Source: Hydrogenophaga sp. NFH-34 (GTDB taxonomy: Bacteria; Pseudomonadota; Gammaproteobacteria; Burkholderiales; Burkholderiaceae_C). Taken from it: a stretch of DNA of 64,000 bases. This document shows, piece after piece, positions 36,085-40,060 of this stretch. The stretch's first letter is position 1. The number at the start of each line of letters is the position of its first letter. The stretch is from assembly GCF_021401345.1 (NCBI RefSeq), contig NZ_JACBGE010000014.1:1-64000 (forward strand), read 5' to 3'. The position numbers and the translations under genes are program-made. The notes beneath the pieces are model-generated. The model was not told where the DNA came from, did not search any database, and saw only the letters and a list, made by a program, of their open reading frames with translations.

Positions 36085-38481
36085 TCACCAGCGACGGGTG
36101 GCCGTGACGATGGCCTTGCGCGGCTCTCCGTAGAAGCAGCCGTACATGGCGCAGCTGCCGATGTAGGTTTTGTCCGCCAGGTTGCTCACGTTCAGGGCCA
36201 ACCTCCACAGACCGGTGTCGTACGCCACCATGGCGTCAAACAACGTGAAGGCCGGCACGCTCACGGCCAGTCCGTGAGCGCGACCACGTGCCTCGCCGAC
36301 GTAACGAGCCCCAAGGCCGACCTTCAGCGCCGAAAGCCCAAACGCGCCAAAGTCGTGATCCCCCCAGAGCGATGCCTGGTGGTCAGGCACACCGATCGAT
36401 CGCTGCCCCCTTTCTTCGGGCTGCAAAGGGCTGGCCCGCAGCGTGCGGGCGTCGGTGTAGGCATAGGCGGCAATCAGGTTGACGTGGCGCCCGATGCGGG
36501 TGCGGGCTTCCAGCTCCAATCCCTGGGAGCGCACCCGGCCCTGCTGGATCATGTGGTTCACGTCCAGCGGATCGGTCACGGTGACATGGTCACGCGTCAA
36601 CCGGTAGACCACCGCCGACAGCAGGGTTTCCGTGCCGGGGGGCTGAAAACGCACCCCCGCCTCCACCTGCTCACCGCTCGTGGGTTTGAAGCGACGCCCC
36701 AGGCGATCGGTGCCGGTGGTGGGTTCGTAAGACTCGCTGTAGCTCAGAAACGGCGCCACCCCGTTGTCCGCCAGGTAGACCAGCCCAGCGCGGCCGGTGA
36801 AGGCGTGGCTCTTTTCGCCATCGGCGCTCTTGTCACCGGAAAAGAGTGCCTGCTCGTCATAGCGCACGGTGTCGTACCGCCCGCCCAGCAGCATCGCCCA
36901 GCGCTGATCGATCTTGATCTGGTCCTGTGCGTACACGCCCATGCGTTTCATCCTGGAAATGGACGAATTGGATGCGGGAGCTGCTGGTCCACGCTCGGCG
37001 CCGTACACCGGTGCGTACAGATCCAGCGGCGCGCTGTCGCGGTTGTAGCGCTCATCCCGATGGCGCGGGGTGGCGTAATCGAAACCCGCCAGCAGGGTGT
37101 GCTGCACGTTGCCGTGTGAGGTCTGGTACTGCAACGAGGTGTCCATCGTCGTCGCCGATGAGCGGTCCTGACGATCTTGGGCACCCCGAAAGGCGGTGGT
37201 GCGCAGATCACTCTCCAGCCCCCAGATCCACGCGTTGTTGTACACATTCTCGGCACGGTAGTGGCGCAGACTGTGGCGGAGTTTGAGCTGCTCGCTGAAG
37301 GCGTGCTCGAACAGATAGCCGACGCTGTGGCGCTGGAGGTGGAACCGGTCGTAACCGGGCTCGCCTGTGAAGCGGTTGCGCGGCAATCGACCGCTGGGGT
37401 TGGGCAGCACGGTGCCGGGGCCTGGCAGGCCGTAGACATAGGCCGTCTTGTCTTCGTGGTACTCGGCCAGCAAAGTCAGCGAGGTGTCCGCGCTGGGCTG
37501 CCAGCGCAGGGCCGGCGCCAGGTAAGTGCGGTCATCGGGCACGTGCTCGACAAAGCTGTCGCTGTCCCGTCGGAGAAAGGTCAGCCGGTACGACCAGTCG
37601 CTGCCGTCTCCCAACGCCCCGCCGAAATCCCCCGACACCTGGCGCCGGCGAAAGCTACCGACCTCCACATTGAGCTCACGCAGCGGCGTCGCCGTCGGGC
37701 GCTTGCTGATCGTGTTGATGATGCCGCCGGGCGCAGCAGCGCCGTACAGCACCGACGCTGCGCCCTTGAGCAGTTCGATGCGCTCGAGCCCATAGGGCTC
37801 CTGCTGACCGTTGTAGTAGTTGACGCTGTACGGTGTACCGTCCCGGTAGTGGCTGCCGACACTGCCGGTCTGGAACCCGCGCAGAAACATGCCGTCGGTT
37901 GTTCGGTCCATGCCTTCCGTGCGGCTGACGCCGGCCACATAACCCAGCGCGCCTTGCAGGCTTTGCGCCTTCAGGGTGTCGATCTCTTCCGCCCCGATGA
38001 CGGTGATCGACTGCGGCGTCTCGATAATCGAGCTGTCGGTCTTGGTGCCGGTCGCGCTGCGTCGTGCCACGTAACCGCTGACCGGACCTGTGGCGGCATC
38101 ACGCTCGGCGCTGGCACGCACCACCACTTCGGGCAGAACGGTGCCGCCAGGTGCCGGGCGCTCGATCACCAGTGTTCGCCCTTGCACCCGCCCTTGCAAA
38201 CCGCTGCCGGCCAACAGGGTCCGCAGTGCCTGCGCCACGTCCTGCAGGCCGAGGATCGGGGGCGCCTGCCGCCCCTGCGCGAGCTCCGGCGCAAAAGCCA
38301 GTTGCAGCCCGGCTTGGCTGGCCAGTGCGGTGAGCGCGGGCGCCAGCGGTTGCGCGGGAATGTCGAAATGCACAGTCTGTGCCATGGTGGCCTGTATCTG
38401 GAGTGCCAGGCCCAGGGCCAGGGCCGCTCTGGCCACCACACGGGTGCGCGGCAGGGAAGAAGCGGGGAATCGGTGGTGCAT
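36085..38481 (-). CDS. TonB-dependent siderophore receptor with STN signalling domain
   Basis: Outer-membrane receptor-transducer of 798 residues, of the FpvA/FecA class. After a signal peptide (to about ATMAQ, residue 35) comes an STN domain (about 38-110, FDIPAQPLAPALTALASQAG to LVIERP) that contacts an inner-membrane anti-sigma factor. Next is a TonB-box-like VVVRAS, a plug (about 135-260, with VLYGAAAPGGIINTISKRP) and a barrel ending KAIVTATRRW. Extracellular cysteines occur in SCAMYGCF near the C-terminus. It lies 119 bp downstream of the sigma/anti-sigma fusion gene, its obvious signalling partner. Ferric siderophore is the likely ligand, given the Fur-like box upstream of the pair. Confidence 0.93.
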   Translation of the reverse strand: MHHRFPASSLPRTRVVARAALALGLALQIQATMAQTVHFDIPAQPLAPALTALASQAGLQLAFAPELAQGRQAPPILGLQDVAQALRTLLAGSGLQGRVQGRTLVIERPAPGGTVLPEVVVRASAERDAATGPVSGYVARRSATGTKTDSSIIETPQSITVIGAEEIDTLKAQSLQGALGYVAGVSRTEGMDRTTDGMFLRGFQTGSVGSHYRDGTPYSVNYYNGQQEPYGLERIELLKGAASVLYGAAAPGGIINTISKRPTATPLRELNVEVGSFRRRQVSGDFGGALGDGSDWSYRLTFLRRDSDSFVEHVPDDRTYLAPALRWQPSADTSLTLLAEYHEDKTAYVYGLPGPGTVLPNPSGRLPRNRFTGEPGYDRFHLQRHSVGYLFEHAFSEQLKLRHSLRHYRAENVYNNAWIWGLESDLRTTAFRGAQDRQDRSSATTMDTSLQYQTSHGNVQHTLLAGFDYATPRHRDERYNRDSAPLDLYAPVYGAERGPAAPASNSSISRMKRMGVYAQDQIKIDQRWAMLLGGRYDTVRYDEQALFSGDKSADGEKSHAFTGRAGLVYLADNGVAPFLSYSESYEPTTGTDRLGRRFKPTSGEQVEAGVRFQPPGTETLLSAVVYRLTRDHVTVTDPLDVNHMIQQGRVRSQGLELEARTRIGRHVNLIAAYAYTDARTLRASPLQPEERGQRSIGVPDHQASLWGDHDFGAFGLSALKVGLGARYVGEARGRAHGLAVSVPAFTLFDAMVAYDTGLWRLALNVSNLADKTYIGSCAMYGCFYGEPRKAIVTATRRW

Positions 38482-38600
38482 AGAAGATCGTCCTGGATAG
38501 GGCATGAAGAAAAGGCTTTCTTCTGCTGGACGAACGAATCGGCACAACCCTGAAGCTTTTTTTGAGAGAGCGAAGCGACGTCGCATCGCGGAACGCAACG

Positions 38601-39884
38601 CTAGCGAGCCATCAGCATGACGCCACCCTCGCTGTCGCGCACGGCACGCACCGGCAAGACAGCGGGCAAGGCCTGCAACCAGTCGTCCCACTGAGCGATC
38701 TCGACCGTGCCGCTGACACGCAGTTGGGCCGTCCTGGGGTCGGCACGGAGATCGACTTTCGCATAACGTGCCAGGCGTTCCACGGCCTCGCCAAGGGGCA
38801 CCGCGTCGAAATGAACGCGCCCCTGCCGCCACGCCGCCGCTGGGCCAGTGACCGCCTGGCTCCGCCCGTCCGGCGCCACGCGAAGCCCCTGGCCCGCCGT
38901 CAGCCCTGCCGCCAATACCTGCGCGGAGCGCGCGACCCGCACACGGCCCGATTCGACCTGCACGAGCACCGTGCCGGCCGGCTCGATGTCGACACCGAAC
39001 CGCGTGCCCAGAACGGTGACACTCAGCGCCCCCACCTCCACCGTGAAAGGGCGATCGGCATCGGTGCTGACGGCAAAAAAAGCGGCTCCCCGCAGCAATC
39101 GCACAGTGCGGCGGCGCGCATCGAAAGCCATCTCCACACGGGTCTGCGCATCGAGCGTGAGCATCGAACCGTCGGGCAAACCCTGTTGCAGACGCTGCCC
39201 TTGCGGCGTCGACAGAGCCGCCGCCCAATGCAGCGCCTGGGTCTGCCGGTAGCGCCAGCCTCCGGCCAGGCCCAGCACCCCCACCGCCGCCGCCCCCAGC
39301 AGCGAAGCCAGGCTTTTGCGCCGCCCCTGTGTCGGGCCGCCCAGGCCGCGCCGGGGCTCCCCCCGCCAATGTCGAAGCGCAGTATCCACCCGGTCATGGG
39401 CCGCCATGAGGTCGCGCTCCACGGTATTGAGCGACACCCCCAGGCGCAAGGCGATATCGGCCTGCGCTTCGCCGTGGATACGGTGCGCCACAAAGACATC
39501 GCGTACCCTGGCCGGCATCGCCATCAGTGTGGCGTCAAGCGCGCTCAGAGCCTGGCGGTACATCAGGCCTTCGGCCACATCGGGCGTGTGGTCGACGCCC
39601 GCTCCAGCCTCCCTCCCTTGCTGCAGATGGGCTTGCAACCAATGTGCGCGGCGTTGGCGGTCCTGCCCGAGGTTGGCCGCCACGGTATAGAGGTACGCCC
39701 GGGCATCGGCTGCCGGACCGCAGGATGCTTCAGTGCCCGCCTGCTCGGCCAACCGCAACCAGGTCTCGTGTGCCACCTCACGGGCATCCTCCACACTGCC
39801 CAGACGGCGACGCAAAAAGCGCACGATGGCTTCGTAGCGCTGGGGAAACTCGTTCAGGACAAGGGACAGAGCCGGGGGACGCAT
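38601..39884 (-). CDS. Fused ECF sigma factor and FecR-like anti-sigma factor (membrane-tethered sigma)
   Basis: One 427-residue open frame joins two normally separate proteins. Residues about 12-80 are sigma region 2 (NEFPQRYEAIVRFLRRRLGS, VAHETWLRL) and 108-165 region 4 (AMPARVRDVFVAHRIHG, DIALRLGVSLNTVERDLM). A membrane helix follows (about 191-209, LASLLGAAAVGVLGLAGG). The periplasmic FecR domain is at about 225-320, with the Gly-Thr at 293-294 (VTVLGTRFGV) where FecR proteins self-cleave, and a C-terminal STN-like domain at about 355-425. Little remains of the cytosolic FecR anti-sigma domain. Similar hybrids are known (IutY of Pseudomonas putida) but rare. I infer a membrane-held sigma released by proteolysis when the adjacent receptor signals. 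Confidence 0.9.
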   Translation of the reverse strand: MRPPALSLVLNEFPQRYEAIVRFLRRRLGSVEDAREVAHETWLRLAEQAGTEASCGPAADARAYLYTVAANLGQDRQRRAHWLQAHLQQGREAGAGVDHTPDVAEGLMYRQALSALDATLMAMPARVRDVFVAHRIHGEAQADIALRLGVSLNTVERDLMAAHDRVDTALRHWRGEPRRGLGGPTQGRRKSLASLLGAAAVGVLGLAGGWRYRQTQALHWAAALSTPQGQRLQQGLPDGSMLTLDAQTRVEMAFDARRRTVRLLRGAAFFAVSTDADRPFTVEVGALSVTVLGTRFGVDIEPAGTVLVQVESGRVRVARSAQVLAAGLTAGQGLRVAPDGRSQAVTGPAAAWRQGRVHFDAVPLGEAVERLARYAKVDLRADPRTAQLRVSGTVEIAQWDDWLQALPAVLPVRAVRDSEGGVMLMAR

Positions 39885-39912
39885 GGCCGGCGAGCATACC
39901 GGATTTATCAAG

Positions 39913-39925
39913 AATGAATCTCATT
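39913..39925. promoter_or_regulatory. Fur-box-like palindrome upstream of the sigma/anti-sigma gene
   Basis: AATGAATCTCATT is a perfect AATGA-N3-TCATT inverted repeat. It equals both arms of the Fur consensus core AATGATAATCATT, and the 19-bp window matches the classic Fur box at 13 of 19 positions by my count. It starts 29 bp upstream of the sigma/anti-sigma ATG, where a promoter would lie, implying iron-repressed expression. The same interval also precedes the DUF6172 gene on the plus strand. Confidence 0.6.
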
Positions 39926-40060
39926 AACAACCCATACCCCGACCCACCCGGATGGGGCGGAGATGCCAGGACAGACCGTGGCCGGAGGCTCTGGCGGTGA
40001 TAATCCGCCCCCTGCATCACGTCCATCCCGGGCCGTGGCCACCCGAGAAGGACAGCCCCC

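Follow-up and report, generated by a model that had tools for sequence, protein, structure and literature searches.

A sigma factor/FecR fusion in Hydrogenophaga sp. NFH-34 and its relatives that has lost the anti-sigma domain and is probably held by its membrane tether

The 64,000-nucleotide stretch of Hydrogenophaga sp. NFH-34 DNA analysed here (contig NZ_JACBGE010000014.1, positions 1 to 64,000; hereafter the window) encodes, on the reverse strand at 38601–39884, an ECF sigma factor and a FecR-type sensor joined in one polypeptide. The fusion is real, and it is not a one-off. We consider it probable that the protein is a one-component, Fur-controlled cell-surface-signalling (CSS) regulator, in which a membrane tether would replace the anti-sigma domain and proteolysis would free the sigma factor for the receptor gene. 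The fusion, the lost domain, the conserved twin arginine and Gly-Thr pair, the Fur box, the STN-bearing receptor and the clade to which the protein belongs are all read from the sequence.

The fused gene starts with an ATG at 39884 and is translated in a single frame, with zero internal stops, into 427 residues followed by a stop codon. Pfam recognises the two regions of a FecI-like ECF sigma factor, region 2 at residues 19–82 (39639–39830; PF04542, 28.3 bits) and region 4 at residues 115–161 (39402–39542; PF08281, 39.2 bits), both above their cut-offs, and TIGR02937 scores 49.4 against a cut-off of 42.9. Further along the same strand come a linker predicted to be disordered (residues 174–192, 39309–39365), a twin arginine within it (R188-R189, 39318–39323), a single membrane helix seen both in an AlphaFold2 model and by hydropathy (residues 193–217, 39234–39308), and a periplasmic FecR domain (residues 224–316, 38937–39215; PF04773, E = 4.9e-20) in which Gly293-Thr294 (39003–39008) occupies the position of the FoxR/FecR self-cleavage site. 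The chain ends in an STN-like subdomain, approximately residues 351–427 (38604–38834). Translation, Pfam and the model thus bear out the first-pass annotation, which had placed sigma regions 2 and 4, one helix and a FecR domain with a Gly-Thr self-cleavage site in a single frame of 427 residues.

The AlphaFold2 model, built from an alignment of 41 fusions from the family sample described below, has a mean pLDDT of 87.6 and a pTM of 0.57. It places the sigma helices within residues 6–173, drops below a pLDDT of 50 at 182–191, and continues with the helix at 193–217, a beta domain and a terminal alpha/beta part. The best PDB match found by Foldseek is PupR (6OVK), with a TM-score by target of 0.81 over the periplasmic half, followed by a Parabacteroides anti-sigma factor and then by ECF sigma factors. 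The periplasmic part of PupR is described as comprising CJM and STN subdomains (PMC7186176), which fits the “STN-like end” of the earlier annotation; PF04773 and the 6OVK fold together point to the same composition here. That end is upheld by fold and is weak by sequence, as FecR_C reaches only 11.8 bits, below its cut-off of 24.4.

What the protein lacks is the cytosolic anti-sigma domain. Pfam finds no DUF4880 match in it, and the linker, which lies where DUF4880 sits in two-gene FecRs, is 19 residues long by the model (174–192), or 31 if counted from where the Pfam match to region 4 ends; the near-absence of this domain had been proposed from the outset, with a linker of about 25 residues. 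DUF4880, the cytosolic anti-sigma domain of CSS regulators such as FecR and PupR, is missing from all 41 of the fusions scanned (seven fusions from named genomes lay outside the scan) and from both IutY-type proteins (L217, L218), as against 68 matches in 70 two-gene FecRs after thinning. The Hydrogenophaga genome itself carries the domain in five of five two-gene FecRs. Two of its eight FecR matches (C33, C72) are likewise devoid of it, and we do not count these as CSS regulators because no sigma match is reported beside either.

Two short motifs of the FecR half have been kept throughout. R188 is present in all 48 distinct fusions and R189 in 47, the exception being a lysine; this twin arginine before the helix is the remainder of the cytosolic FecR tail. 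Taking the most hydrophobic 17-mer as the helix, “RR” occurs near it in 67 of 94 two-gene FecRs and in neither IutY-type protein, in both of which the two model columns are empty. E. coli FecR is Tat-dependent, and the Hydrogenophaga genome has TatC. Pfam TAT_signal gave no match among those listed for the 41 fusions, and matched two of the 70 two-gene FecRs; a title on the Tat-dependence of E. coli FecR is cited in PMC9249621. Gly293 and Thr294 are invariant (48/48). Among two-gene FecRs each of the two is present in 93 out of 94, and neither IutY-type protein (0/2) has the pair. FoxR is reported to cleave itself at such a Gly-Thr pair (PMC11637429).

The surroundings of the gene fit an iron-responsive CSS locus. 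A Fur-box-like site on the same strand (39910–39928), 25 bp before the ATG of the fusion, agrees with a Fur consensus at 14 of 19 positions; it is the best match in the window, and none as good occurs in 40 random windows. Sites scoring at least 12/19 precede 28 of the 41 fusions as against 11 of 410 random stretches, with start codons assigned by rule. Downstream of the fusion and on the same strand lies a gene for a TonB-dependent siderophore receptor of 798 residues (36085–38481, ATG at 38481) with STN, plug and barrel, its STN signalling domain (38158–38307) scoring 30.7 bits with PF07660 against a cut-off of 28.4. The regulator thus has an STN-bearing TonB receptor beside it, as is usual for CSS systems, and a same-strand receptor frame follows 40 of the 41 fusions, two of them at more than 1 kb, with an STN domain in 39 of the 40. 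Among NCBIfam models, the siderophore-receptor model TIGR01783 exceeds its cut-off; the three top-ranked models stay below theirs, with FhuA leading at 523 bits (cut-off 803), ahead of a general siderophore receptor and then FoxA. Because FhuA and FoxA rank among the nearest models, the ligand is likely to be a hydroxamate siderophore.

Several loci deserve separate mention. One fusion locus (L138, G305:C10, identical with the L159 locus of Vandammella animalimorsus) has no receptor in the stretch examined; the next frame looks, from a sequence motif, like an exopolyphosphatase-type gene. At L114 and L115 the receptor frame is in two pieces beside an intact fusion frame. On plasmid NZ_CP133752.1 of Pseudomonas aeruginosa (L186) the haem receptor gene hxuC is accompanied by a sigma/FecR pair. 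Receptor and regulator kinship also disagree among L099, L104, L106 and L108: the closest regulator (L104, 65% identity) goes with a receptor only 42% identical, whereas the regulators of L106 and L108 (63 and 62%) go with receptors of 72 and 74% identity, a pattern suggestive of receptor swapping.

Between fusion and receptor, 38528–38554 (reverse strand) is a candidate only for the receptor promoter, its motif having been chosen after inspection and the results being mixed. The pattern, made after viewing 22 intergenic stretches, occurs in 18 of 37 clade loci versus 21 of 2050 random stretches; at held-out loci its strict form is found in none of seven, and a looser form in one of seven against a background of 59/2100. 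Trained on nine loci, a weight matrix reaches an empirical p < 0.05 in 16 of the 28 untrained loci of the clade, in three of seven hold-outs, and in none of four fusions outside the clade. PvdS-like and FecI-like promoter patterns are not enriched (0/41 and 1/41).

From these features a working scheme can be proposed, whose insertion route, self-cleavage, proteolysis, sigma release and target promoter are borrowed from work on IutY, FoxR and FecR. Upon iron shortage, Fur would permit expression of the gene, and the protein would enter the inner membrane, perhaps via Tat by means of its twin arginine. There the helix and its short linker would keep the sigma factor at the cytosolic face, and the FecR half would lie in the periplasm. 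The FecR half is probably self-cleaved at Gly293-Thr294, its pieces remaining together non-covalently before any signal, and the STN domain of the adjacent receptor would shield it. Once the ferric siderophore binds, the periplasmic half would become exposed to an S41 protease and subsequently to an M50 site-2 protease, and the freed sigma factor would go on to transcribe the gene of the receptor. In this scheme the membrane tether would stand in for DUF4880; since no anti-sigma domain remains, silencing should fall to the tether.

Release by regulated proteolysis, also proposed from the outset, appears to be the likeliest mechanism. In IutY, aerobactin is described as triggering Prc and RseP, by which the sigma domain is freed (PMC5411451), and the anti-sigma factor of the Fox system is reportedly kept from proteolysis by the signalling domain of the receptor (PMC11637429). 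The Hydrogenophaga genome contains a full-length M50 match, a candidate site-2 protease, and a single S41 match (G000:C18:62561-63109) in a 505-residue frame; given that this is the only S41 match, the first cut may be made by a protease other than the Prc known from IutY and Pseudomonas. The activity of E. coli FecI is described as requiring an N-terminal piece of FecR (PMC9249621), so a freed fused sigma factor would have to act without one; IutY cut after residue 168 reportedly works without such a piece (PMC5411451).

The sigma factor might instead act while still bound to the membrane, the periplasmic half altering its conformation or access with no release at all. The disordered linker of the model would accommodate this, and the cytosolic sigma domain of IutY is said to be itself tightly membrane-associated (data not shown there; PMC5411451), but IutY truncations that keep the helix are reported to depend on RseP for activity (PMC5411451), and we judge this reading unlikely. 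Truncated IutY proteins were also undetected in the absence of RseP (PMC5411451), so the proposition that a tether alone silences the sigma factor is not clean even in IutY. Inhibition in trans by another cell protein, such as a two-gene FecR, could draw on the five DUF4880 FecRs of the genome and on the two-gene pairs that lie within the 13-kb stretch examined at five of the 41 fusion loci (L100, L103, L105, L124, L135). The window's contig, however, has no DUF4880 match, and at most fusion loci no two-gene pair is seen in the 13-kb stretch, which leaves this explanation with a slim chance. That the protein is a decayed regulator, constitutive or dead through loss of its anti-sigma domain, would account for the absence of the canonical inhibitory domain, but sits poorly with the invariant residues in both halves across the fusions and with the Fur-box-like sites and STN receptors that accompany them; we consider it very improbable.

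Such fusions had been thought rare, and a search of related genomes had been proposed as a check; the relatives turn out to be fused, and rarity does not hold for the family, in which at least 30 of 397 sampled genomes carry a fusion. This sample was a profile search with four candidates scored per genome and frames extracted from chosen matches, so its counts are lower bounds; it yielded at least 41 single-frame fusions, some genomes having two or three copies. One of the 41 (G082) is a copy on a Diaphorobacter plasmid, and another (L112) starts about 28 positions into the model. With the window protein counted and duplicates removed, there are at least 48 distinct single-frame sigma-FecR fusions, besides two IutY-type proteins. 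Within the genus, 67 genomes searched with the protein gave three full-length single-frame matches (the genome itself, G006 and G013). A scan of named genomes found at least 24 loci, namely 15 single-frame fusions (in Acidovorax, Rhodoferax, Pseudorhodoferax, Variovorax, Comamonas, Vandammella and a Burkholderiaceae assembly), one frame-broken fusion (L158), and four each of two-gene systems and sigma-only matches. Outside the family, a class-wide search of 370 genomes (best four candidates per genome) gave no full-length fusion among the matches listed, one candidate (G530) proving on inspection to be two frames. In 398 inferred Pseudomonadaceae genomes, with the best four candidates of each, at least two full-length fusions are among the matches listed; none is among those listed for seven genomes around G774. 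In L131 (G263:C31) and L158 (Acidovorax sp. CCYZU-2555) the reading frame changes between the sigma part and the FecR part, and these are frameshifted copies or assembly errors.

That a normal fecI and fecR were joined here by a missed stop or frameshift in sequencing or assembly is scarcely credible, for while two genes are the usual form of such systems and frame-broken fusions exist (L131, L158), with at least 48 distinct single-frame fusions, and fused relatives present in independent assemblies, neither chance nor a missed frameshift is tenable, no frameshift was found between the halves, a linker of 57 bases cannot hide the 43-residue DUF4880, and the contig has no match to that domain.

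To place the protein among its relatives, we built one tree from 168 columns of the sigma part and another from 229 columns of the FecR part, each by a quick search without bootstrap. Thinning left 117 rows, namely 45 of the 48 fusions, two IutY-type proteins and 70 of 94 two-gene pairs. Both trees recover an identical clade of 41 fusion rows that contains the window protein, with SH-aLRT values of 97 (sigma) and 95 (FecR). The IutY-type proteins, L101/L102, L135 and L136 fall outside it in both trees; L136 is a long branch of uncertain position in the sigma tree. The label fused or two-gene changes five times in each tree, and well-supported branches force three changes (sigma) and four (FecR). 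AU tests on 44 chosen rows covered the joining of the clade with IutY, with L101/L102 and with L135, the last two groups being named after the trees were seen. Joining the clade with IutY gives p-AU values of 0.0375 for sigma, just under 0.05, and 0.0015 for FecR; joining it with L101/L102 gives 0.0045 and 0.0018, and with L135, 0.0014 and 0.00025. Because three small lineages of fusions, as well as the presumed IutY orthologs, branch outside the window clade, the sigma/FecR fusion looks to have arisen more than once. Label counts alone cannot distinguish fusion from splitting, and fusion is the likelier direction since a split would have to regain DUF4880. The fusions L101 (G006) and L102 (G013), from the window's own genus, form a separate lineage with a very short linker that groups with two-gene systems, and neither has a Fur-box-like site above 9/19 near its chosen start.

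IutY of Pseudomonas putida KT2440 (PP2192; PMC5411451) had been offered as the precedent, and as a parallel it stands: there too an ECF sigma factor, one helix and a FecR half are described in one chain, and its presumed orthologs, like the fusions, are without DUF4880. Its partner receptor, IutA, is described as a typical one for CSS (PMC5411451). As kin IutY is not supported. Our comparison was made through L217 and L218, two proteins of inferred Pseudomonadaceae genomes that we presume to be IutY orthologs; both are 374 residues long from the chosen ATG, as against 427, and both carry all nine residues (D210, R231, A240, F251, V253, W301, L313, L317 and L320) that are named among constitutive IutY mutants (PMC5411451). 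The window protein has eight of the nine, L317 being V. Neither presumed ortholog has the twin arginine ahead of its helix or the Gly-Thr pair, and both branch apart from the window clade, so that common descent with IutY as a fusion is disfavoured; identity of the window protein as an IutY ortholog is rejected by both trees, by the AU tests and by these missing motifs.

With FecI/FecR, FoxI/FoxR and PupI/PupR the fusion shares the sigma type, the FecR domain, the Gly-Thr pair, the PupR fold, the STN receptor and the Fur-like site; unlike it, these are two proteins, with a FecR partner that bears DUF4880 (68/70 here). The Actinobacteria ECF48, ECF52 (SCO4117) and ECF53 proteins resemble it in joining a sigma factor to a membrane-spanning regulatory extension for which proteolytic activation is expected (PMC8999054), but they are set apart by their description in that review, which gives them a zinc-finger anti-sigma domain and extensions without FecR or a TonB receptor. 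L101/L102, L135 and L136 are single-frame sigma-FecR proteins without DUF4880, as is the window protein, but stand outside its clade in both trees.

A sigma/FecR fusion as such is already known from IutY, which has been called unique (PMC5411451, PMC9249621); a review lists proteolytic regulation for some ECF243 members and gives IutY as the only characterised case (PMC8999054). We found no literature on the window clade, although the 2021 re-classification of ECF sigma factors may list such proteins, so that earlier notice is possible. As judged from its presumed orthologs, the Gly-Thr pair and the twin arginine distinguish the window clade from IutY. Because the fusion is repeated and none of the 43 Pfam-scanned fusions (the 41 and the two presumed IutY orthologs) has an anti-sigma domain, a general rule may be put forward, which we hold to be evenly balanced between right and wrong: where the sigma factor is covalently tethered, the membrane would itself be the anti-sigma factor and DUF4880 dispensable, and the window clade would stand next to IutY as a second class, one that is larger and differs in mechanism, being Tat-inserted and pre-cleaved at Gly-Thr, with its sigma factor held at the membrane by a non-covalently paired sensor. 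The domain is missing every time the sigma factor is tethered, and a conserved fusion clade with apparently independent parallels amounts to a natural experiment on the purpose of the anti-sigma domain. Whether tethering suffices to silence a sigma factor thereby becomes directly testable in a one-component, receptor-coupled switch.
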